Shown here: positions 13,832 to 28,324 of the stretch, in pieces
Layout of the letters: each line of letters opens with the position of its first letter
How positions within the stretch are numbered: position 1 is the first letter of the stretch
Source: Pseudobacteriovorax antillogorgiicola
GTDB lineage: Bacteria; Bdellovibrionota_B; Oligoflexia; Oligoflexales; Oligoflexaceae
Length of the DNA: 64,000 nucleotides
Direction: 5' to 3'
Assembly: GCF_900177345.1 (NCBI RefSeq)
Contig: NZ_FWZT01000013.1
Location: 124,001 to 188,000, forward strand
Translations under genes and position numbers: made by a program
Notes under the pieces: generated by a model
What the model saw: only the letters and a program-made list of their open reading frames with translations
Databases searched by the model: none
What the model was told of the DNA's origin: nothing

Positions 13832-16800
13832 TTTCTAAGCGGCCTGCTCCGCCGGGAACGAACCCAAACACGATAAGGATCATCACTAATGTTTCTAAGC
13901 GGCCTGCTCGGCCGGGAACGGGGGTACATTGCATTTACGCGGGCAAGGGTATTTCTAAGCGGCCTGCTCGGCCGGGAACGTTAAGCGAACTGAGTAACGC
14001 TTCCACTCACCTTTCTAAGCGGCCTGCTCGGCCGGGAACATGGCAAGATATCCGACAATGTAATACCTGATTTTCTAAGCGGCCTCCTCGGCTGGAACAA
14101 TGCAACAAAGTGTAGGAAATGTTTCATTTTTTTCTAAGCGGCCTGCTCGGCCGGGAACACTGATAGATGAAGTTGTTAATGCGGCTTGTGTTTCTAAGCG
14201 GCCTGCTCGGCCGGGAACGAAGAACCAGCATAATAGGCGACACTTTCAAATTTCTAAGCGGCCTGCTCGGCCGGGAACAAGAGGAAATTCAAAAGCTGCG
14301 AGAACAGCTATTTCTAAGCGGCCTGCTCGGCCGGGAACTCGAGAGTGGTTAAAGCAAGCTGTTCTTTCAATTTCTAAGCGGCCTGCTCGGCCGGGAACTG
14401 TGAATGGCAGAGTCGTAATTGACGGAGTATTTTCTAAGCGGCCTGCTCGGCCGGGAACTGACTTCTAGCTTTCGCTTGAAACGCGCTCTCTTTCTAAGCG
14501 GCCTGCTCGGCCGGGAACAGAAAGTATGATTGCTATTTTAAGCAGATCAAATTAAGCGGCCTGCTCGGCCGGGAACAAGGGCGGCCTTTATATTTATTCA
14601 ACTCTCTTTTTCTAAGCGGCCTGCTCGGCCGGGAACACTTAAGCCTCGTTTTTCCTCGTCTTCGCGATTTTCTAAGCGGCCTGCTCGGCCGGGAACATTA
14701 AGGCTCAAGATGAAACCATAGCTAGGCATTTCTAAGCGGCCTGCTCGGCCGGGAACGAGAAAAAATAAGTTGTATAATCAAGGAGAATTTTCTAAGCGGC
14801 CTGCTCGGCCGGGAACTTGACAACGACGAACAGACAATCCGCGAAGTATTTCTAAGCGGCCTGCTCGGCCGGGAACAATGGATGACGCCAAAACATTAGC
14901 TTGTCAGTTTTCTAAGCGGCCTGCTCGGCCGGGAACATAGTGATCCAATAGTTTTACCACTCCCACTGTTTCTAAGCGGCCTGCTCGGCCGGGAACCAAT
15001 AGACAGCGTGCAAACAGGTGTTCCGCTAGTTTCTAAGCGGCCTGCTCGGCCGGGAACACAGATACACTGAAAGCGAAAAAAAGCAAATTTTTCTAAGCGG
15101 CCTGCTCGGCCGGGAACGTTGAGCTGGCCGAACATGCGGCCCTTCATAATTTCTAAGCGGCCTGCTCGGCCGGGAACGTTGAGCTGGCCGAACATGCGGC
15201 CCTTCATAATTTCTAAGCGGCCTGCTCGGCCAGGAACTATCTTCGAAAGTAGCTATATATAAAGCTTTTTTTCTAAGCGGCCTGCTCGGCCGGGAACTAT
15301 AGAGTGGCCTAAATCCATCGACGACTTTATTTCTAAGCGGCCTGCTCGGCCGGGAACTGGGACCAAAGTTATCGACAGTGATGACGTTATTTCTAAGCGG
15401 CCTGCTCGGCCGGGAACGTTTGAGTGAGTCCGTGTCATCTCCCCTTCAGTTTCTAAGCGGCCTGCTCGGCCGGGAACGGCCACATGGCACTGCTAGCGAC
15501 CTGGCATTTCTAAGCGGCCTGCTCGGCCGGGAACCGTATGGTGCAAGACATACAGCGCGTTCTAGATTTCTAAGCGGCCTGCTCGGCCGGGAACATGGCT
15601 GTAAAAAAGATTTGCGAGCGCTCTGGTTTCTAAGCGGCCTGCTCGGCCGGGAACGTAATCAAGCTTGAGCCAATAGCTAGGAATAATTTCTAAGCGGCCT
15701 GCTCGGCCGGGAACAGACTCTGAAAGGACTTGTGAACCACCGTATATTTCTAAGCGGCCTGCTCGGCCGGGAACGAAGTTTAGAAGCTCGACCATACTGC
15801 TCGTTATTTTTAAGCGGCCTGCTCGGCCGGGAACAGTCATTTCGCTTTTGATCTTAGTCTCTGCAATTTCTAAGCGGCCTGCTCGGCCGGGAACATTCCT
15901 TTCACCGTTGGCGCATCCGTAGTTTTTTCTAAGCGGCCTGCTCGGCCGGGAACAGTAAGTTCTTCATCGGAAGCAATAGCAACGCTTTCTAAGCGGCCTG
16001 CTCGGCCGGGAACTCTCTGCTCGTATGCCGTCTTTAAAAGTGCATTTTCTAAGCGGCCTGCTCGGCCGGGAACTTTTTGTTTGGGCGAGTTTCCTATTCC
16101 TCAGTTTTCTAAGCGGCCTGCTCGGCCGGGAACTGTGAATGGCAGAGTCGTAATTGACGGAGTATTTTCTAAGCGGCCTGCTCGGCCGGGAACTGACTTC
16201 TAGCTTTCGCTTGAAACGCGCTCTCTTTCTAAGCGGCCTGCTCGGCCGGGAACAGAAAGTATGATTGCTATTTTAAGCAGATCAAATTTCTAAGCGGCCT
16301 GCTCGGCCGGGAACAAGGGCGATCTTTATATTTATTCAACTCTCTTTTTCTAAGCGGCCTGCTCGGCCGGGAACACTTAAGCCTCGTTTTTCCTCGTCTT
16401 CGCGATTTTCTAAGCGGCCTGCTCGGCCGGGAACATTAAGGCTCAAGATGAAACCATAGCTAGGCATTTCTAAGCGGCCTGCTCGGCCGGGAACAGTAGA
16501 TCAACGCTCTCCCTTACTTTTCTGGTGTTTCTAAGCGGCCTGCTCGGCCGGGAACGTGCGACGGACCAAGAGTTTGAACACTTTATTTTTCTAAGCGGCC
16601 TGCTCGGCCGGGAACTCGAAAAGCCTTCCCCCAGGACCTAGGCCAGTTTTCTAAGCGGCCTGCTCGGCCGGGAACCCAGTGGCACCGAGTTGTCGTCTGG
16701 AATAAGCATTTCTAAGCGGCCTGCTCGGCCGGGAACATCTACCCATTGAAAGCTATCATCAATCGCCATTTCTAAGCGGCCTGCTCGGCCGGGAACAAAA

Positions 16801-19800
16801 GTTCTAAAGGATCTTTGGCCGTCGTGGTTTTCTAAGCGGCCTGCTCGGCCGGGAACAAGCTCATTGCCTTTTCAGCCAACACTGAGATTTTCTAAGCGGC
16901 CTGCTCGGCCGGGAACTTCTATTAGAGCTAAGACTGAAGCAGCTAGGATTTCTAAGCGGCCTGCTCGGCCGGGAACCAGTTACTCTAGAGAATGCTGCCA
17001 AGGGTCTTTTTCTAAGCGGCCTGCTCGGCCGGGAACTCATCGATCCGTCATCTGGTAAGGTCCTTGTATTTCTAAGCGGCCTGCTCGGCCGGGAACATAA
17101 GGCAGCTTCAATTGGTGTCATCGAGAACTTTCTAAGCGGCCTGCTCGGCCGGGAACGGCATAGGCCACTCCCTGATAGTTGCCTTGTGTTTCTAAGCGGC
17201 CTGCTCGGCCGGGAACGCTCAAAGGCGGTCGTCCAATGTGGCTGCGTGTTTCTAAGCGGCCTGCTCGGCCGGGAACAATATGGTGAATTTGGATCTGTTT
17301 CAAGCTGATTTCTAAGCGGCCTGCTCGGCCGGGAACGAAACCTCAAGCGTAGACGCTGCTTGGCTGGGTTTCTAAGCGGCCTGCTCGGCCGGGAACTGGA
17401 TCGGGTGGATCTTGAGGCAAACAGCCAATTTCTAAGCGGCCTGCTCGGCCGGGAACAATGGGCGTTTGGACATTTTTTGAGACCACCTTTTCTAAGCGGC
17501 CTGCTCGGCCGGGAACAGGATGAACTAGCTTTCCAGATGACCCGTCTTTTTCTAAGCGGCCTGCTCGGCCGGGAACCTACATCAAGCTTCCGGCCCTAAA
17601 GGCAGCTTTTTCTAAGCGGCCTGCTCGGCCGGGAACATGGGTGATAGGGATCACATGCTCCAGTGTGTTTTCTAAGCGGCCTGCTCGGCCGGGAACCGGG
17701 CGCTGTTGAAATCTTTTCTCAGCTTCAATTTCTAAGCGGCCTGCTCGGCCGGGAACTTCGGCTAATTGACTATCAGAACTCTTACTAGTTTCTAAGCGGC
17801 CTGCTCGGCCGGGAACAAAAATGAGTTCTCACGTTTCACCGACGAAAATTTCTAAGCGGCCTGCTCGGCCGGGAACGGTCACGGCGATTTTCAGCAGGCA
17901 GTTGTGGTTTTCTAAGCGGCCTGCTCGGCCGGGAACTTTAAGTGTCTCACGCTTTATACCTTGCCTTTATTTCTAAGCGGCCTGCTCGGCCGGGAACAAG
18001 AAAGTTCGTCAGAAACTCCGTTCAGACGGTTTCTAAGCGGCCTGCTCGGCCGGGAACGTAGGGTCTCTCGCGGAAACATGAAACGCTTATTTCTAAGCGG
18101 CCTGCTCGGCCGGGAACTTGTACTGAATGCTATTTCGTCTCTTGCAAAATTTCTAAGCGGCCTGCTCGGCCGGGAACATCTTTTGAACGTGCCTATTTTC
18201 ATCGAATGTTTTCTAAGCGGCCTGCTCGGCCGGGAACGTGATCCCCTTTTCCATTAGTCCATACCTCATTTTCTAAGCGGCCTGCTCGGCCGGGAACAGC
18301 CATTGTAATAGACTCCGCGACCCACTTTTTTTCTAAGCGGCCTGCTCGGCCGGGAACCAGTAAATAAAGCAATTATCCTCGGCAACCTATTTCTAAGCGG
18401 CCTGCTCGGCCGGGAACCCCAAAGAAGACACTATTAAAGGGTATCTTCTTTTCTAAGCGGCCTGCTCGGCCGGGAACTTAACAAGCTAAAGTTTCAGTTT
18501 TCGGCTCTTTTTCTAAGCGGCCTGCTCGGCCGGGAACCATTGTCGTTTAGGCGATCAAAAGCTAGATATTTTCTAAGCGGCCTGCTCGGCCGGGAACACA
18601 TTCTCGAAAAAGTCTATCGCCCGAAGACATTTCTAAGCGGCCTGCTCGGCCGGGAACTCGATGGCGCGCTGGATCGCATTTTGCCATTATTTCTAAGCGG
18701 CCTGCTCGGCCGGGAACCAGTAAATAAAGCAATTATCCTCGGCAACCTATTTCTAAGCGGCCTGCTCGGCCGGGAACCCCAAAGAAGACACTATTAAAGG
18801 GTATCTTCTTTTCTAAGCGGCCTGCTCGGCCGGGAACTTAACAAGCTAAAGTTTCAGTTTTCGGCTCTTTTTCTAAGCGGCCTGCTCGGCCGGGAACCAT
18901 TGTCGTTTAGGCGATCAAAAGCTAGATATTTTCTAAGCGGCCTGCTCGACCGGGAACACATTCTCGAAAAAGTCTATCGCCCGAAGACATTTCTAAGCGG
19001 CCTGCTCGGCCGGGAACTCGATGGCGCGCTGGATCGCATTTTGCCATTATTTCTAAGCGGCCTGCTCGGCCGGGAACGTTAGGTGTGGTGTGGGTGTGCT
19101 GGGTTGTCTTTTCTAAGCGGCCTGCTCGGCCGGGAACTTAGCTGTCGCTGAAAGGATAACCCCAGAAGATTTCTAAGCGGCCTGCTCGGCCGGGAACATC
19201 CTCATTGAGAACAACGGAAAGATTATCAATTTCTAAGCGGCCTGCTCGGCCGGGAACAGGAGTGGGGCCCATGATAACCGCTTTCAAGATTTCTAAGCGG
19301 CCTGCTCGGCCGGGAACCGGTTTGCTAATTTTGTTCTAAACAACCCAGATTTCTAAGCGGCCTGCTCGGCCGGGAACGGCGAAGGTAATGCCATAGCTAG
19401 CGCCATGGGTTTCTAAGCGGCCTGCTCGGCCGGGAACGCAACTCTTTCCCTTTTGGAAAACGTGGTTATTTTCTAAGCGGCCTGCTCGGCCGGGAACGGT
19501 TTGAGGAGCCTTTACGGCCCTTGGGAATATTTCTAAGCGGCCTGCTCGGCCGGGAACGTCACGGCGATTTTCAGCAGGCGGTTGTTGTATTTCTAAGCGG
19601 CCTGCTCGGCCGGGAACGGCGGAGTAGAGTTCGGCAGTGTATTTGCTCTTTTCTAAGCGGCCTGCTCGGCCGGGAACGGAAAACTTTACCAAGTCATTAA
19701 CCCGCATATTTTCTAAGCGGCCTGCTCGGCCGGGAACGAACATTAGTTTGAACGCTTCGAACCCCATTATTTCTAAGCGGCCTGCTCGGCCGGGAACTAT

Positions 19801-20037
19801 GATGAAAGTATCGATTATGACTCTGATTGTTTCTAAGCGGCCTGCTCGGCCGGGAACATCGCTAACAGGCCTTAACTTACCCGTGCCTTTTTCTAAGCGG
19901 CCTGCTCGGCCGGGAACGAGCTGCTCCCGCCGCCGCAGGAGCTAAGTAATTTCTAAGCGGCCTGCTCGGCCGGGAACGCTCTCACAGCTCCCCCACTCTG
20001 AAGCAACAGTTTCTAAGCGGCCTGCTCGGCCGGGAAC
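13832..20037 (-). CRISPR. Type I-F CRISPR array, 104 repeats and 103 spacers
   Basis: A 28-base repeat recurs about every 60 bases; I counted 104 copies with 103 spacers, mostly 32 bases (range about 29-33). On the plus strand it reads TTTCTAAGCGGCC...GGCCGGGAAC. On the minus strand, the direction of transcription, it begins GTTCCCGGCC and ends CTTAGAAA, with the 5-bp stem CGGCC/GGCCG typical of Cas6f substrates. Orientation matches known I-F repeats, so the leader is at the right, beside cas6f. Degenerate repeats at the left (13832 CTCCGCC variant, 14072 one base short, ~14550 lacking three bases) fit the old trailer end. Variants also occur at 15210, 15807 and 18930. Several spacer blocks are duplicated (see findings). 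The open frames across the array are artefacts. Confidence 0.98.
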
Positions 20038-20182: not shown

Positions 20183-20752
20183 TTATGGAAAGTCCGGTAC
20201 GGTAGATTGACTACTTAGTCCATAAGCGCTAAACACTCCCTCTTGGGGCCCATCGCGCTTGTTCTTTTCAATGAAAATTGGGAAGACATGGTGATTAGTA
20301 AGGCTCTCATACTCGATTCGCGGAAGCCGTGGCTGACCCATCTGTTCACCCTGACGAATCTCCTTGATAGCGGTATCAAAATCGATACCATGTCTTTTAG
20401 ATGCTCGCCTTGCTAGTTTTTCTATACTTTTTTTATTGTTCTTCCGAACAAAACATACATGCTCAATATTTGACGGGACTATTCTAGCTCGCCTGATATG
20501 AACGTAGTCTCGAAGCCTAATAAGCCACTTCTTTAAGTCCAAACTATGAAGTTCGCTCTCGTCTTTGGCGAATAAACGAAGCTTTGAGCCAACGGTTAGA
20601 CTTTCTGCATCATATTCAGGCCAAGCTAGACCTATACTGCCTGAATTATTCTCAACTAAACAAAGGTGAATTTGCTTAAACACTTTTTTCCATAGAAATG
20701 TTAAATCTACTTCCATTGAAGGCAGTAGGGTCAACTCCATATAGTATTTCAT
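20183..20752 (-). CDS. cas6f: Cas6f (Csy4) CRISPR RNA endonuclease
   Basis: A 189-residue protein, the usual Csy4 size. The catalytic His is at residue 29 (FKQIHLCL), where the well-studied Pseudomonas enzyme also has His29. The basic helix (KLARRASKRHGIDFDTAIKE) that grips the repeat hairpin and the family C-terminus YGLSSQSTVPDFP are present. It cuts the I-F repeat transcript after the hairpin stem and stays on the crRNA 3' end. The gene is last in the interference operon, 14 bases after csy3, next to the leader. Confidence 0.95.
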   Translation of the reverse strand: MKYYMELTLLPSMEVDLTFLWKKVFKQIHLCLVENNSGSIGLAWPEYDAESLTVGSKLRLFAKDESELHSLDLKKWLIRLRDYVHIRRARIVPSNIEHVCFVRKNNKKSIEKLARRASKRHGIDFDTAIKEIRQGEQMGQPRLPRIEYESLTNHHVFPIFIEKNKRDGPQEGVFSAYGLSSQSTVPDFP

Positions 20753-20766
20753 CTCCTTGAGCTCCC

Positions 20767-21783
20767 CTACTTATCACTTTCCCCAAATACGCCCCCTCGG
20801 ATGAGAACAGCCATAACATAGTGCTCATCTTCTTCTCGTTCGAGCTCGCCGCCACGTGCGTATTTATCGAATAGTGTGTAAAAATCGGCTTTCAGCTTTG
20901 GTTGACGAAAGGCTTTACCCATATTCGTTACCGAACCATATGGCTCTATTGCAATCGGACCAAGTCTACTATTGTAGTCAGGGTACCAAGTATCGATACA
21001 TCGGATCGCATTTCCTATCTTCTGAGAATGAAGAGCTGCAATACCACCTAGATTGTAGAGCACCTTGCCTTTTTTTCCTTTACCCTTGTCCATGATAAGT
21101 TCTTCGCTTGGATATACTTCTTGTCCTTCACCAAGCTTTGAGTACGCATCGACTTTGAGTAGTAAGTATCCATCTTCACTTGATAGCGTCTCGGCCACTT
21201 CCCTTGCTAGTTCTTCGATTGATTGATCTTGATCTTCAAAATCTCTAGTACTGTAGTTGTAGCTATCAAACACGAATGTTTTTTCATTGTCCTTAGTTTT
21301 CATTGAAGCAACGACTTCGATTTTCTCACTACCGACCCTGTTTCTCCATAGAAATCTGGCGTTGGCAATGTTAGTAATATATCTACGTGACAGCTCCAAA
21401 AACTGGTACTTTTCAGTGTACTTTGATAAAGTCTTTCGATACGAGTCTAGGAACCCCTCGTGATTGCAAGCTGAGGGCACATGTAACCCACCAAGAAACT
21501 TCAGTGTAAGTGATACTTTCAAAGTATCGTGGTTTAGAGGGAGTGAACATGCGTCTACAGTTTGAAGGTTGGGCTTTTGAACCTCAGCATCTAGCTTTAG
21601 AGGGTCACTTTTGAGAGCCTTTTTTAACCTATTTGATATAGTCCCCCTAACTGATTTTTCTTCTACCTTCAATTCATGAGCTTCTTTTTCTCGTCTTTCC
21701 CAAGCTGTGCTATACATATACGCTGCTGACGGGATAATTTTCTTTTCGAATGCTAAAACCGAAACTAAATCTTTTTTTGACAT
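20767..21783 (-). CDS. csy3: Cas7f (Csy3) crRNA backbone subunit
   Basis: A 338-residue protein of the expected Csy3 length with the family opening VLAFEKKIIPSAAYMYS and central ISNRLK. The segment LGGLHVPSACNHEGFL and the end YVMAVLIRGGVFGESDK also fit. Six copies coat the spacer in the type I-F surveillance complex. GGAAAGAG precedes the ATG. It sits between csy2 (11 bases upstream) and cas6f. Confidence 0.93.
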   Translation of the reverse strand: MSKKDLVSVLAFEKKIIPSAAYMYSTAWERREKEAHELKVEEKSVRGTISNRLKKALKSDPLKLDAEVQKPNLQTVDACSLPLNHDTLKVSLTLKFLGGLHVPSACNHEGFLDSYRKTLSKYTEKYQFLELSRRYITNIANARFLWRNRVGSEKIEVVASMKTKDNEKTFVFDSYNYSTRDFEDQDQSIEELAREVAETLSSEDGYLLLKVDAYSKLGEGQEVYPSEELIMDKGKGKKGKVLYNLGGIAALHSQKIGNAIRCIDTWYPDYNSRLGPIAIEPYGSVTNMGKAFRQPKLKADFYTLFDKYARGGELEREEDEHYVMAVLIRGGVFGESDK

Positions 21784-21794
21784 GATACTCTTTC

Positions 21795-22688
21795 CTAGAC
21801 TGATTGATTTCTACATAGGTACTGGCTATTTTCGCTATCGTAGTCATATGACCAGAGCATATCATCTATAGATGACAAGCTGTATGGGCTAACAAACTCT
21901 CCTAATGTTACGATGCTTTCTACAAACCGATGTGGGGTTGATGAGTCCCTAGTATTAAGTGTCTCTCCAGCATCGTATAGTTGACCAAGTCCTTGATACC
22001 CTGTCACCAAAGGAACAATCCAACCAGGGTGTTTTCGCTTGCTGTTCCATGAAACTCTTTTCTCTGCATCTTCATCTGCATCTATCTCGCTGAAGTTGCT
22101 AACCGCCAATGAATCTAGCAGTTCATCCAAATTATCTTCGGCAGCAACATTCTTGAGTAGGTCGCGTCTTTCAATAGGAATAAACCCAAATGGAATTTTC
22201 CCAATGATAGACATATAACCCTCTTCATTATCTTCAATCCCCACTAGGTAAGGGGATTGAGATTTTTGAATATCTCCACCTGCCAACTTCATCTTACTGT
22301 GAAGGATATGTTGAACGATTTCACCAATTTCAGAAAAAGGTCGAGATCCCGCGTACTGACACTCTATAGCAAGTGATACGTTCAAGTTACATCGAGCTTC
22401 TTCGATAAATGATGATCGCTCTCCCTCCTTACTTAACGGGTAAGCCTTCCCAACTATAGAATTATTATAGTCGCCTACGCCCTTGAACACAGCTAGATCA
22501 AAATCATGAATCACAATCCCCAGATTAGGAAATGATATCTCGATATGTTCTCTCCTGAGCTCTCTTTCCATCTTGTGGACGAAACCGAGCCATGCTGTAA
22601 TAGCTGGAAACCCAATTGTCAAAGAACTGGAGAGGGCATTGGCATCGGATACAGTAAGTCTAGGTATAATTAAGAATAAACGTTTCAC
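21795..22688 (-). CDS. csy2: Cas5f (Csy2) surveillance-complex subunit
   Basis: A 297-residue protein, slightly shorter than typical Csy2. It shows the family N-terminal pattern LIIPRLTVSDANALSSSLTI followed by GFPAITAWLGFVHKMER, and the RPFSEIG and GWIVPLVTGYQGLG regions. It caps the 5' handle of the crRNA together with Csy1. Translation starts at GTG 22688, overlapping the csy1 stop in GTGA, so the two subunits are translationally coupled. I see no frameshift or missing block. Confidence 0.93.
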   Translation of the reverse strand: MKRLFLIIPRLTVSDANALSSSLTIGFPAITAWLGFVHKMERELRREHIEISFPNLGIVIHDFDLAVFKGVGDYNNSIVGKAYPLSKEGERSSFIEEARCNLNVSLAIECQYAGSRPFSEIGEIVQHILHSKMKLAGGDIQKSQSPYLVGIEDNEEGYMSIIGKIPFGFIPIERRDLLKNVAAEDNLDELLDSLAVSNFSEIDADEDAEKRVSWNSKRKHPGWIVPLVTGYQGLGQLYDAGETLNTRDSSTPHRFVESIVTLGEFVSPYSLSSIDDMLWSYDYDSENSQYLCRNQSV

Positions 22689-23902
22689 CGTAGGGCAAAT
22701 CTCCTTCTTGTTCTGATTAACTTAGATATATGTCTTAGGTCTTCGTCTCCTAGGTCACAGGCTCTACTTCCTAATATCTTTCTATATGAGCGGATAAACC
22801 AACGAGAAAATTCTAGAAAAAATGTTTCTCTCAATTCATCATCTCTTTCCTCACTGAATTTGTTATCTAGAAAAACTCTCTGATAATGCGGCACACCTGA
22901 TTTAGAAACTGTTTGCCAAACGTCATCTTCTCTGAGACGATAGATGTCTGTTATTACTTGATCAAAAATATGGAGTATGAAGTTTTCATCTCGCACGCTT
23001 CTAGTTCGAAAACCATTATTATTTTGAATAACTTGAAGGTGGAAACTTTTAAAATCATCTTTAAACTGCCAAGGAGATATGCTTTCACGAAAGAAATCTT
23101 TTTTCGGCAACCTATCTGGCCTAGTTCTAACACTTGGAGGTAGACTAGGAAGTAAATACGCTTTTCCACCATTGTTTTTGTTCTGGACACTGATATTTTG
23201 AGGCTTTGTGCCTCCATACCCAATTACTGTTAGATTGAATAGATCTATGAATCCTTTATCATGGGCCTCATTCCTTTTCTTTGCCTCCCTCGCTTCCTTA
23301 GCCACATCTGAGAACTTAATAGCATCGATTCGCCTCTTCATTTCATATAGAATTGGCGATGGTCTTAGAACTGAGAGAAGATGATAGCTATTATCTACTG
23401 GAAAGTAGACTTGTTTTATTTTTGAGTTAGTGATTGCTATATCAGAAGATATGGACTTCATCTCCAGAAATCCGTTTCTAAGGTTATCAAAGGAAGCTGA
23501 TGGGATTTTCAGTAAGTCTTTTGCTATTTCGCTTCTATCTTCAATATGAGTCAGGAGGCTCCTACCGTCTCCCATTTGCAAGTTCAGAAAGCTATGCACG
23601 TCAAGTGCCGCAGCATTTCCTAGAGCATCAAGTGAAACGTCTAAGTTTCCAGTTCGAACAAAGCCGTCATCACGCTTCGATGATTCAGCTATAATAGCTG
23701 TAGTTCTCCCCGCTGAACTTGCCTTTGCACTTGGATGACTAAACGTGCATGGGTGGCTAGACAATGCGATTTGTTTTGCTCGCGCAGCAGCGCTGGGAAG
23801 CCAGTTATTCAGATCGAACTCTTCCTCAACTTCTTCCTTACTCTTTTTCTTGAGTCTTTCTTCCTTTCTTTTCTCGAAAAAAGATTCAATCGCTTCGTGC
23901 AT
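22685..23902 (-). CDS. csy1: Cas8f (Csy1) large subunit
   Basis: A 405-residue protein, a little shorter than typical Csy1. It opens with the family pattern of a charged helix (IESFFEKRKEERLKKKSKEE), then WLPSAAARAKQIALSSHPCTFSHPSAK as the first conserved block. The region from VIGYGGTKPQNISVQNKNNGG to YLLPSLPP is the second conserved block. Csy1 recognises the PAM and helps open target DNA, then recruits Cas2/3. TGGAG lies 7 bases before the ATG. It is 14 bases downstream of cas2/3. Confidence 0.93.
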   Translation of the reverse strand: MHEAIESFFEKRKEERLKKKSKEEVEEEFDLNNWLPSAAARAKQIALSSHPCTFSHPSAKASSAGRTTAIIAESSKRDDGFVRTGNLDVSLDALGNAAALDVHSFLNLQMGDGRSLLTHIEDRSEIAKDLLKIPSASFDNLRNGFLEMKSISSDIAITNSKIKQVYFPVDNSYHLLSVLRPSPILYEMKRRIDAIKFSDVAKEAREAKKRNEAHDKGFIDLFNLTVIGYGGTKPQNISVQNKNNGGKAYLLPSLPPSVRTRPDRLPKKDFFRESISPWQFKDDFKSFHLQVIQNNNGFRTRSVRDENFILHIFDQVITDIYRLREDDVWQTVSKSGVPHYQRVFLDNKFSEERDDELRETFFLEFSRWFIRSYRKILGSRACDLGDEDLRHISKLIRTRRRFALR

Positions 23903-23916
23903 AATATCTCCAGTAA

Positions 23917-26900
23917 CTATAATTTCTTATCCTCGAACATACCAAGTGCAGGATGATAGCATAATTTCTTGCCCTCTTGATAAGAGGGCAAAAGGATCTT
24001 CCCATACTTTTCAGCTGCTACAAACATTGATGTATTTTCTAGCTCAGCCAAGCTGCATAAAAGTTGGTGAAAATCTCTTGCAACAAAAAGTCGATCATAT
24101 GGGTCATATAAATCAATGAACTTAATGTTAAAACTATCTTCAATCAGATTGTAGCCATCGCTTGATTTAATATGAAATCTAAACTCTAGATCGCTACTGC
24201 ATTTCGATTCATCAGGGAGTAGAAGCAAGCTCAATCCTTGACTTCCTTCTCTAAACGGTGATTCCACCTGTGGCTGAGATGAAAGCCACCAGAACTCGTT
24301 TAGCCACCCCGCTAAAGTTTTTGCCTCTTTTGCATCATAATTGCAAAGATTTTCTTCAAGCTTTATATGTTCCAGCTTTGCGAACTCGTCGGTGTTCTCA
24401 TTGGAGATTCGTAATGATGCATCGATTCCTCTTTCACACCGTTCAATGTCTAGAATGTCAGTCAAACTATGACTACTCAAGTCACTAAATTTCTCTTGAA
24501 AACCTGGCCGATTGAAAACAGCTCTATTGACCCTATTAGATTCCCTCTGCTGTGCTTCTCGAAGGTTGAACTCAAGAATCTTGACATTCGGTTTGCTTAC
24601 ATTCAGCTTTCTATGTCTAAGAATTCGACCAACCAACTGGATGATAGATCGATAGGAAGAAGGCTCAATGATCCCCCAATCAAAATCATGATTTCTTCCA
24701 ACTTCCTCTACCGGAGTCGATACGATAATGAATAAAAAGTCACTACTATCACTTTTGTCTAGAATATCCCTTACAATATCGTGGCTAAATACTCTATCGG
24801 CATTCTTTCTATTAAGAATCTCATCCAATAGGGATTCCTGTTCATGTCTTAGAATTAGAGTCTGTTGGCTATGGTAAATGGTAAGCTTGATCTGTAGATG
24901 ACTTTCCCAATCTGCTTCAAGTAAGTATCTACCCAGCTGGACGCAGGGAGTTACATTTGCCATGCGAATAACACCGAAAGACACTCTTTTTCCTGTTAAG
25001 GGGTCAACTGAATGGTGATCATGATGCAAATTTTCTGCTTCCTTGCGGATTGCTTCAAAGAACCATTCTGACACTGAATTATACCTATCCCGTTCTGAAG
25101 GATTCAAACAGATCAGAGAAGCTTTTCTTCTTACAGGCAATTTAGAAAGATTAGCCAACCGTTTAGAAATAAACTTTTGATGGGAAGATTCGAATTTTGT
25201 AATATAGTCTCGACCAAGATCCATCAAATTTGCTACACTTTGAAATTCATCAATCCATGCAGTACCAACACTTTGATTAAAGCCTCTTGAGCTAGCGAAG
25301 ACTTTCCACCCCTTCGCATAGCAATTAAAAAAACCATTTGCTATTGCTGGCGAAATTGTTGCAGAAGAAAGAATGACTTTTCTTCCTAGCATACCGGCCA
25401 AATGAATAAGTCTGCCAACTGCAAGGAGATCTTCCTTGCCAAAATCGTCAACCTCATCGATGACTATGTCGGACGACATGAGGCGTAATAACGGTAATAT
25501 ATACTTGCCGCCCTTTCTTGTTTCGGTAGCTCCCATGACGTGATCGATAGTACATACTAGTATAGGGGCATAGAGAAAAGCCCTGTCTTTGTCTTTTTTG
25601 ATAACCGTCTTGAGAAGACTTTCGTATTCATAATTCTGGAAATCGATATCATCGTAATCTGATAGATCCTCTAGAGACTCTGATCCCATCTCGCGAGAAC
25701 TTCTTGCACTCTCTCTTTGATCTTCTACTATTCGCCTATGGTGGAGATCCATGAGTGCCTTTGAACCAACAAGTACTGCAAGGCTATCTGAGTCAAGCTG
25801 TAGGTTTTTCCGATACTCATTGCCGGTTTGGAGCGTAAGTGTTCGGAGACCTACGGCCAAAATATACCGAAGACTCTCTTGGTTTGGAGATAACGCACGC
25901 ATGATCTTAGCATTCGCTAAAGTCTTTCCAGTGCCAGTGCTAGCCATATTAACGACAAAGAAACCATATTGCTTGCTAGATTGAATAGAGCTTTCATTCT
26001 TTTCATACCAGGCGCGGATAATTTTAACCGCTTTATCTTGCCAGTTGAACTCTCGGGGGCTAGGCTTACGCAATGCTTTGATGTCTGATGCATACGGCAT
26101 TTCTTGCTCAAAGTAGGGCAACCTATAACTTACTTTGAGCGACTTCTTTGCCACATTGACAAGATGTTCATCTAGCTTCTGCTTTGCATCTCCGTTCTTG
26201 TCCGTATTTGCAATCAATCTAGATTCCACCCATGACTTATCACAATCTTCTGACGAATAAAGATGGTCTCCCATCATTAGGCTGACACGACTAAATATGG
26301 CTAGTAATCGAACGCTGCCGTTTCTGATACTTTCCTCGATTAAGGGCATTTCTCCCAAGGCACGATTCGCCCATTTTCTAATCTGCTGTTGAAGTCTGTG
26401 GCTTTCCTGAAGTAGTCCTTCTGGAAATGTAAAACAGCTTGCCTGCTCATTTTTCCTAAGCTCGTTCATATACCCCCAACCGGCATCAATCATCTGGAGA
26501 AGAGAGTCCATTGAGGGAGCGGAGTTTAAATTTTCGTATCTGCTTCGATCTTTTGAAATATGTGGAAGTTTATGATGACTTAAGATTAGCCAAGCTACAA
26601 GGCAGGCAATAGGCTGCCCCTTTCCTATTACAAGTTTTTCAGATGGGCGCGGTAACTTGCCCCCACTGAAGCCATTTATTGATAACTCCTCCAGCCATTT
26701 CTTGTCAGACTTTTCAAACACAAAGTTGAGGAACAGATTTGTCGATACCCATTCATGTCTAAATGGATCGCTTTTTGAAGCACCACTCCGTTTAAGCTTA
26801 TTTTGAAAACACTCTGAAGCCTTTCCAATATCATGAAACAAAGCACTGAGTGCCGAAAGTGCTTGAATCGCAGGTAGCAGTTGCCACTGATTCTCCACCT

Positions 26901-27195
26901 GAGGGTAATCAATACTTGTTTTATGGACTGGCGAGTACCCTTCACTGCTGAACGCTTCTTTGTTCCCCACTATCCACTGAAGTTCCATTCCTGAATGACC
27001 ACGAAGCTTAAAACATGAAACAGCAGTATTCCTGGTAGCAGATTTTCTCAGTAGCTTTCTAACTGCAAGCAAGCCCTCCATTGTGATCGTAGTGCTCCAA
27101 GTTCGCCTGCCTATTCTATTAGCGAATGAATCCAGGACTCTCTGTGTTCGAGACAGTGCCTTTTTTTCACATAGAGAGTTGAATACGACGATCAC
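23917..27195 (-). CDS. cas3: Cas2-Cas3 fusion nuclease-helicase
   Basis: A 1092-residue type I-F Cas2/3 protein. Residues ~1-95 (MIVVFNSLCEKKALSRTQRV...) are the fused Cas2 domain that joins Cas1 for spacer integration. The HD nuclease motif ALFHDIGKA has His121-Asp122. The SF2 helicase has Walker A STGTGKT (~419-425), DEVDD (~580-584) and the VEEVGRNHDFDWGI and QLVGRILRHRK motifs. It degrades DNA opened by the Csy complex and also takes part in adaptation. Translation starts at GTG 27195 with GAAAGGA upstream. All key motifs are intact, so interference and adaptation should be functional. Confidence 0.96.
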   Translation of the reverse strand: MIVVFNSLCEKKALSRTQRVLDSFANRIGRRTWSTTITMEGLLAVRKLLRKSATRNTAVSCFKLRGHSGMELQWIVGNKEAFSSEGYSPVHKTSIDYPQVENQWQLLPAIQALSALSALFHDIGKASECFQNKLKRSGASKSDPFRHEWVSTNLFLNFVFEKSDKKWLEELSINGFSGGKLPRPSEKLVIGKGQPIACLVAWLILSHHKLPHISKDRSRYENLNSAPSMDSLLQMIDAGWGYMNELRKNEQASCFTFPEGLLQESHRLQQQIRKWANRALGEMPLIEESIRNGSVRLLAIFSRVSLMMGDHLYSSEDCDKSWVESRLIANTDKNGDAKQKLDEHLVNVAKKSLKVSYRLPYFEQEMPYASDIKALRKPSPREFNWQDKAVKIIRAWYEKNESSIQSSKQYGFFVVNMASTGTGKTLANAKIMRALSPNQESLRYILAVGLRTLTLQTGNEYRKNLQLDSDSLAVLVGSKALMDLHHRRIVEDQRESARSSREMGSESLEDLSDYDDIDFQNYEYESLLKTVIKKDKDRAFLYAPILVCTIDHVMGATETRKGGKYILPLLRLMSSDIVIDEVDDFGKEDLLAVGRLIHLAGMLGRKVILSSATISPAIANGFFNCYAKGWKVFASSRGFNQSVGTAWIDEFQSVANLMDLGRDYITKFESSHQKFISKRLANLSKLPVRRKASLICLNPSERDRYNSVSEWFFEAIRKEAENLHHDHHSVDPLTGKRVSFGVIRMANVTPCVQLGRYLLEADWESHLQIKLTIYHSQQTLILRHEQESLLDEILNRKNADRVFSHDIVRDILDKSDSSDFLFIIVSTPVEEVGRNHDFDWGIIEPSSYRSIIQLVGRILRHRKLNVSKPNVKILEFNLREAQQRESNRVNRAVFNRPGFQEKFSDLSSHSLTDILDIERCERGIDASLRISNENTDEFAKLEHIKLEENLCNYDAKEAKTLAGWLNEFWWLSSQPQVESPFREGSQGLSLLLLPDESKCSSDLEFRFHIKSSDGYNLIEDSFNIKFIDLYDPYDRLFVARDFHQLLCSLAELENTSMFVAAEKYGKILLPSYQEGKKLCYHPALGMFEDKKL

Positions 27196-27382
27196 AGCAG
27201 GGTCCTTTCAATGTTCACTATAAAACGAGAAAACAACTAATTAGAAATACAACTACTACTGTCTTAGAATATAGCGGCTAACGGGGCCCCTTAATATGTT
27301 GCAAAAGAATTCTGACTTTCTGACAAGCGTAGAAATTCGCTATTCTTAACTACGTTAAATCAACCACGGCCGAATAGGCCGC
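27196..27382. promoter_or_regulatory. cas1-cas2/3 intergenic region with GGGGCCCC palindrome
   Basis: An unusually long gap (187 bases) in an otherwise tightly packed cas operon. It holds a GGGGCCCC palindrome (27283-27290) within a 12/16 symmetric element, a possible operator, and the lone CRISPR-repeat-like hairpin at 27362-27389. A promoter for the downstream interference genes is likely here, but no clear -35/-10 pair stands out. Confidence 0.5.
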
Positions 27383-27389
27383 TTAAATT
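27362..27389 (+). repeat. Orphan CRISPR-repeat-like hairpin at the cas1 3' end
   Basis: CGGCCGAATAGGCCG (27367-27381) followed by CTTAAA matches the array repeat core (CGGCC-GAGCA-GGCCG-CTTAGA). About 18 of 22 core positions agree, including the whole stem and the G...A loop ends. It reads in repeat orientation on the plus strand, opposite to the array, and overlaps the cas1 stop codon. It is a single copy about 7.3 kb from the array. Confidence 0.75.
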
Positions 27390-28324
27390 TCCATCCGAGA
27401 CACCTTCTTAATACAGTTAAACATGTAGTCCAAGGCCTTGTGATCTGTAAGTTTCATGATGCATGTTGAACGGAACTCCTGTTCAGAATCTCCTTGCTTG
27501 GCTGATATAAAAGCTTGGGGAAGGATAATCGCATCCTTTACAAGATCTGCAATATCAAATACCAGCGCACCTTTCCTGGTCTTCCCATGCATCACTGCAA
27601 ATCCATAGGGGATTCCCAGAACCCAAAGCGATGTTGCTGCTAGGCCATAGGCCAGGTAGTTGCCATGGGAAAGAAACGTATTCTGAGGATCTGTGGACTT
27701 ATGATCACGCTTAAAGTCTTCGAGCTCAGTCTTTTCTCGGGAATATCGATACAGAAAGCTAGTCAGTTCGCCCTCTACTCCAAGTAGCTGAGAGATACTA
27801 TTGGCCCGGTTAAACTTTTTCCCGTATCTATCTAAGGCAGACTCCATGTCATAGTCTTCGGCATCGAACCCTTTATCCAGTAGATCTTTATCCTTACTCC
27901 AGACCAACTCAATGAACTCAAGACGAGATCGTTGAAAGTACTTTGCAGCTTTTAAGCGTTTACTTTCTTCAAACCAGAATGACATCCATCCCTGGAGGTA
28001 TTCGGTTGGACGATATTCACCATGGGGAACAAGCCACTCTACTTCGGTACCCATGAGTAGAGGGGTGCCGCCTCCTCCTGTAAAACCAATGACAACACCA
28101 GCTGAAGCCAGCATTCGCACAGCCGCTTGGGTTATCGATGTACCATTCCCTAATAGGATTACTGTCGTATTAGCAATTGGAATATTCCAGTAGTTATTTG
28201 TTCTATTTTTGTGGCTTAAATAGAGGACCCTACCGTCCTTCTGAAGTACCTTACAGTGCTCGATATAGAATATATTAGCTCTTTTTGAGTGAAGAATTGC
28301 TTTTAGATCAGTCAGGGATTCCAA
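27383..28324 (-). CDS. cas1: Cas1 integrase, type I-F
   Basis: A 313-residue protein of the I-F Cas1 group (NTTVILLGNGTSITQAAVRM near the N-terminus). The metal ligands expected for Cas1 are present: Glu in LLGVEGELT (E184/E186), His246 in AVMHGKTRKG and Asp in VFDIADLVKDA (D257/D260). With the Cas2 part of Cas2/3 it inserts new spacers at the leader end. Translation probably starts at TTG 28324 after GAGGT. It is the first gene of the cas cluster, separated by 187 bases from cas2/3, so the rest may be transcribed separately. Confidence 0.95.
   Translation of the reverse strand: MESLTDLKAILHSKRANIFYIEHCKVLQKDGRVLYLSHKNRTNNYWNIPIANTTVILLGNGTSITQAAVRMLASAGVVIGFTGGGGTPLLMGTEVEWLVPHGEYRPTEYLQGWMSFWFEESKRLKAAKYFQRSRLEFIELVWSKDKDLLDKGFDAEDYDMESALDRYGKKFNRANSISQLLGVEGELTSFLYRYSREKTELEDFKRDHKSTDPQNTFLSHGNYLAYGLAATSLWVLGIPYGFAVMHGKTRKGALVFDIADLVKDAIILPQAFISAKQGDSEQEFRSTCIMKLTDHKALDYMFNCIKKVSRMEI

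Follow-up and report, generated by a model that had tools for sequence, protein, structure and literature searches.

In the I-F CreTA system of Acinetobacter, the first repeat of the guide RNA CreA (psiR1) diverges more than the second (psiR2) (PMC10097628), and a CreA with a single repeat has been described as well (PMC9458426). According to the summary of Liu et al. (2023, doi 10.1016/j.chom.2023.08.005) available through PMC12737573, CreR is a Cas-regulating RNA that is crRNA-like, cas-linked and without a toxin. RacrIF1, in turn, is a solitary I-F repeat that Cas6f binds and cleaves, with inhibition due to the cleavage product upstream of the cut (PMC10651486). 'Lone' repeats in cas loci turn up in repeat searches and may be either regulators or debris. 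Here, we analyzed such a repeat in a stretch of 64,000 nt from Pseudobacteriovorax antillogorgiicola (hereafter the window) and compared it with mini-CRISPRs from a survey of 137 I-F loci, comprising the window and 136 others found via Cas1 homology, a set that is not fully non-redundant.

The cas set of the window is that of a standard I-F system (cas1, cas2/3, csy1, csy2, csy3 and cas6f; Table 1), with the csy1 match (TIGR02564) slightly below its curated cut-off. However, the spacer pattern is reversed: whereas surveyed loci with a spacer usually carry it between cas3 and csy1, the window has only 14 nt at this position and 187 nt between cas1 and cas2/3, which overlap or lie at most 20 nt apart in 102 of the 137 loci. 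The original prediction of a repeat-like hairpin in this long gap, overlapping the cas1 stop and oriented opposite to the array, was confirmed, as the stop codon (27383-27385) lies inside the repeat on the plus strand and the array is read from the minus strand. A GC palindrome, GGGGCCCC, is found at 27283-27290 of the otherwise AT-rich gap. Among 57 other genomes of the phylum, an I-F-like Cas1 was present in only two and the gap of the window in neither; one (G056) shows the usual 4-nt overlap of cas1 and cas2/3, and the other, distant one (G051, 35% identical) an 18-nt gap. Within the array, the stretches 18327-18626 and 18687-18986 (300 nt each, 360 nt apart) are 99% identical, so a spacer block was duplicated there. 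The spacer at 19258 agrees with the csy1 region at 23244 in 24 of 32 positions, with no CC PAM, and the best matches of the array spacers to the window include no PAM-flanked self-target.

Table 1. Features of the I-F locus and of the repeat-like element in the window (positions of the window).
Feature	Coordinates	Strand	Evidence
cas1 (I-F)	27383..28324	-	TIGR03637, E = 7e-133
cas2/3 (I-F), GTG start, preceded by AAGGA (SD match)	23917..27195	-	TIGR02562, E = 4e-265
csy1, csy2, csy3, cas6f	20183..23902	-	TIGR02564, TIGR02565, TIGR02566, TIGR02563
CRISPR array, about 100 repeats of 28 nt	13832..20037	-	repeat GTTCCCGGCCGAGCAGGCCGCTTAGAAA on the minus strand
cas1-cas2/3 gap, 187 nt, contains the element	27196..27382	.	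102/137 I-F loci have <=20 nt there
Candidate psiR1 handle CGTAGAAA, preceded by AAG	27328..27335	+	10-base profile; within covariance model match
psiR1 hairpin remnant CTT(TCTGAC)AAG, <=3 bp	27316..27327	+	direct reading; model alignment
psiS, candidate 26-nt guide TTCGCTATTCTTAACTACGTTAAATC	27336..27361	+	placed between handle and psiR2; no target found
psiR2, hairpin repeat	27362..27389	+	19/28 vs array repeat; unique outside array; stem kept, last four bases decayed
Predicted Cas6f-binding hairpin CGGCC-GAATA-GGCCG, predicted cut after 27381	27367..27381	+	array-identical stem, loop G...A kept

The hairpin, AACCACGGCCGAATAGGCCGCTTAAATT, reads AACCA CGGCC GAATA GGCCG CTTAAATT on the plus strand, and the array repeat, GTTCCCGGCCGAGCAGGCCGCTTAGAAA, reads GTTCC CGGCC GAGCA GGCCG CTTAGAAA on the minus strand. 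Besides the overall identity of 19/28, the previously reported 18 matches over 22 core bases were reproduced, and so was the retention of the G...A ends of the loop, since none of the nine mismatches falls on the ten stem positions or on the loop-closing G and A. With evenly spread mismatches, such sparing has a p of 0.0017, a value that is to be read with the caveat that the site was noticed for its hairpin. Outside the array, the repeat is unique: the best other site in the window reaches 12/18 compared to 16/18 for the hairpin, and GGCCGNNNAGGCCGCTTA, present in about 100 copies in the array, occurs only once elsewhere in the 7.28-Mb assembly, namely in this hairpin. A search of the genome's forward strand likewise gave a single occurrence, and a backward-read control gave none. 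Sites with at least 16/18 matches are expected about 0.16 times per genome and about 1e-5 times in cas intergenic DNA. For the hairpin stretch, the sole Rfam match was CRISPR-DR4 with a score under the gathering threshold, and on both strands of the remaining gap nothing resembling a second repeat rose above shuffled sequences.

As a yardstick for the element, we used the three marks of mini-CRISPRs in the surveyed loci: the handle, the hairpin and the guide-target match. Their layout comprises a psiR1 with a CTTAGAAA-type handle, then 14-33 nt of guide and finally a psiR2 whose 3' end is degenerate, while a CC-preceded target lies 51-289 nt upstream on the same strand (three loci have the other-strand layout). 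Guide and target agree over positions 1-5, 7-11 and 13-17 and are free to differ at 6, 12 and 18, and this 5+5+5 pattern agrees with the flip of every sixth base in I-F crRNA. When at least 12 of 15 matches were required in the relatives, mini-CRISPRs were found in 30 of the 67 testable cas3-csy1 spacers, that is, in nearly half of the loci with such a spacer, and in two cas1-cas2/3 gaps (L095 and L224). The loci concerned are L013, L015, L016, L020, L024, L030, L088, L091, L095, L096, L098, L104, L112, L116, L120, L122-L124, L164, L166, L169, L181, L184, L195, L198, L208, L209, L214, L220, L224 and L236, with L095 holding two of the 32 mini-CRISPRs. The orientation is antisense to the cas genes in 29 of the 32, as for the window hairpin. 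Targets start 55-79 nt upstream of csy1 for 16 of the 30 mini-CRISPRs in cas3-csy1 spacers, and 73 nt upstream of cas2/3 for the one in the L224 gap. A hairpin scan of the surveyed spacers detected 55 and none in the reversed control, and compensatory changes are present in the mini-CRISPR stems. The surveyed mini-CRISPRs fit the CreR/CreA kind. A psiR2 without the clean signature was seen at four other loci (L014, L177, L202 and L232). At L018 (9860-12528), the csy genes are inverted, the CRISPR array directly follows cas2/3 and a psiR2-like repeat now lies at the array end, suggesting an inversion through repeats.

A covariance model built from 23 complete elements matched the window at 27315-27385 with 31.0 bits (E = 1.6e-5), compared to 6.9 bits for the runner-up in 11.4 kb and roughly 54-81 bits for complete elements in the loci searched. 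The match includes a handle-like CGTAGAAA that, together with its preceding AAG (27325-27335), lies 26 nt upstream of psiR2 and had gone unnoticed in the original prediction. It equals CTTAGAAA at 7 of 8 bases, with one mismatch. A handle this good at an allowed distance has a p of 0.0004-0.001 under the 10-base profile, for which one in 1554 window positions scores as well, and of 0.009-0.014 under narrower and wider profiles. Because of this degenerate first-repeat handle, the earlier description of the hairpin as 'lone' is not quite right. The psiR1 stem comprises at most 3 bp (CTT/AAG), and seven hairpin positions of the model are absent from the alignment. With 26 nt, the candidate guide has one of the most frequent lengths found among complete elements. 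The hairpin repeat has a psiR2-like profile, agreeing with the array repeat at 10/10 stem positions and 1/4 of the last four bases (family means of 97% and 27%), whereas of its first five bases only one agrees, compared to a family mean of 72%. Its 5-bp stem is identical to that of its own array and absent from all other surveyed loci, so it either changed along with its own Cas6f or arose as a copy from its own array. With the C6-G20 pair, the stem and the loop G...A all intact, cleavage by Cas6f is plausible on sequence grounds. The candidate guide also contains a perfect 5-3-5 dyad, TTAACTACGTTAA (27346-27358), with the sole TTAACNNNGTTAA of the window; TTAATACAGTTAA at 27408-27420 resembles it. 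The dyad is possibly an operator, or else due to chance.

A partial guide matching the cas2/3 promoter, for which the original prediction had suggested looking, was not found in our searches. With the guide starting at 27336, no CC-flanked site in the gap matched better than 7/15, compared to 12-15 of 15 in the relatives. Whichever register between 13 and 37 nt upstream of psiR2 was taken as the guide, and whether or not a CC PAM was required, matches in the gap remained at or near the level of shuffled sequences; the same was true for the regions upstream of cas1 and csy1, for the array leader and for an intergenic stretch nearby. Genome-wide, five non-self hits with at most three mismatches, most of them in coding sequence, stand against five in the backward-read control. 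Two candidate sites were rejected: CC followed by GCTATATTCTAAG at 27275 on the minus strand has GCTAT in common with the guide only when the register is shifted, and 52 of 60 shuffles did equally well, while CTTAATATGTT near 27290 on the plus strand needs a gap for its alignment to the guide. The gap contains no SD-led toxin mini-ORF, the sole SD-led start being that of cas2/3; a toxin lacking a mini-ORF would go undetected by this criterion. The only promoter-like site on the plus strand upstream of the element was no better than chance.

By our yardstick, the window hairpin belongs to the mini-CRISPR lineage and is without a target. This family link is supported by mini-CRISPRs being common in I-F loci, mostly antisense and twice located in the cas1-cas2/3 gap, as well as by the covariance model match. 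The genome-wide unique match next to cas1, the handle at a 26-nt distance, the psiR2-like profile, the four loci with a psiR2 of incomplete signature and the stronger divergence of psiR1 in the published CreTA also favor it. We consider it rather probable that the hairpin is the psiR2 of a degenerate CreR/CreA-type mini-CRISPR, placed antisense in the cas1-cas2/3 gap and with its Cas6f site intact. Since one Cas6f hairpin and a recognizable target are missing, the element does not rank among working CreRs and is best called a degenerate CreR. The guide is probably dead, and because the other repeat is broken and a target was not found, the element probably no longer works as a regulator and is a relic. 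Of the two origins offered earlier, a CreR/CreA-like regulator or a decayed ectopic repeat, the former is thus supported as to the family link, given the 32 mini-CRISPRs and the covariance match, but active regulation is not supported, as the psiR1 hairpin is lost and no target was detected. Our analysis shows the anatomy of the element, its resemblance to the family and its missing parts. However, some points speak against this reading: an intact, array-matched psiR2 stem is unlike the prediction of long neutral decay and is the main reason for keeping an active role open, and the first five bases of psiR2 (1/5), the handle mismatch and the weaker p at other profile widths also count against it.

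For transcription, processing and past function, we infer the following. In complete relatives, Cas6f would cut a psiR1-guide-psiR2 transcript at each of its two hairpins, and the resulting crRNA-like RNA would consist of an 8-nt handle, 14-33 nt of guide and a 3' hairpin. This RNA would bring the Csy complex to a CC-flanked site that it partly matches, in many cases a short way upstream of csy1, where the complex would block transcription without cutting. By analogy with L224, the complete ancestor of the window element would have targeted the Csy complex to the promoter region of cas2/3. What remains is the Cas6f site of psiR2, the handle with one mismatch and the 26-nt guide; an RNA from this site, if made, could still be bound and trimmed by Cas6f, while repression of the cas2/3-csy operon would be lost.

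The intact stem and its identity to the own array, together with a fitting handle and guide length, would also suit a working CreR or CreA made from the gap, whose 5' end would arise with no psiR1 hairpin and whose guide would repress an unrecognized site, for example one that has an unusual PAM or a shorter match or that lies at some other gene of the genome. The one-repeat CreA cited above lends support to this, as does L187, where a weak psiR1 hairpin occurs alongside a handle without mismatches and a CC-flanked target matching at 11/15. However, neither the gap nor other cas intergenic regions nor the genome hold an above-chance target, whereas relatives found by the same scan match at 12-15 of 15, and the chance-level promoter-like site tells against it too, which makes a working element unlikely. 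An array-identical stem would also fit an ectopic repeat that was simply copied out of the array, or a GC-rich hairpin kept only as a cas1 terminator, and a relaxed terminator scan flags the hairpin on both strands (2 found compared to 0.2 expected). Nevertheless, the terminator role is weakly supported because the tails GGTTGATTTA and CTTAAATTTC carry no uninterrupted T run on either strand, and this explanation accounts neither for the loop G...A, the plus-strand CTTA and the handle 26 nt upstream nor for a setting like that of complete mini-CRISPRs; we regard it as quite unlikely.

A host-encoded, Racr-like decoy would be a single-hairpin transcript that captures Cas6f and Cas7f and thereby limits the complete Csy complex. 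RacrIF1 provides a precedent and the hairpin with its C6-G20 pair is intact in the window, but Racrs were described in viruses and other mobile elements, the gap holds no mobile-element gene, and the eight viral contigs having a solitary repeat with this stem are estimated to be about the number expected by chance for such a short pattern. As the handle 26 nt upstream is also left unexplained, this reading is highly improbable. More broadly, a functional one-hairpin crRNA-like RNA from the gap, with its 5' end formed without Cas6f, appears decidedly unlikely; it would be either a reduced CreR that controls cas2/3 together with the effector genes but separately from cas1, or a host-encoded, self-limiting counterpart of Racr that sequesters Cas6f and Cas7f. 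If the element were active, it would point to a regulation of the effector module apart from cas1.

Compared to known systems, the window shares with Racr a solitary I-F repeat hairpin whose Cas6f site is intact, although Racrs are borne by phages or plasmids, whereas the window hairpin lies inside a chromosomal-type cas cluster and has a handle remnant upstream (PMC10651486). Like CreR, as far as the summary of Liu et al. describes it, the window element is crRNA-like and linked to the cas genes, with no toxin detected; the complete relatives have their targets upstream of csy1 or cas2/3, as autorepression would need, while the window guide is without a match to the cas promoter region. The gap mini-CRISPRs of L095 and L224 have the location between cas1 and cas2/3 and the antisense orientation in common with the window, but kept both hairpins and a 14/15 CC-flanked target. 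In the Acinetobacter CreTA, CreA is located between cas3 and csy1 with both hairpins kept, and a 17/20 target with a CC PAM and an SD-led toxin mini-ORF are present, whereas in the window the element lies in the cas1-cas2/3 gap, the psiR1 hairpin is lost, and target and toxin ORF were not found (PMC10097628). Nonetheless, both consist of degenerate repeats in a cas intergenic gap with a guide between them and the better-kept psiR2, and for both, processing of the RNA by Cas6f (Csy4) would be expected (PMC10097628).
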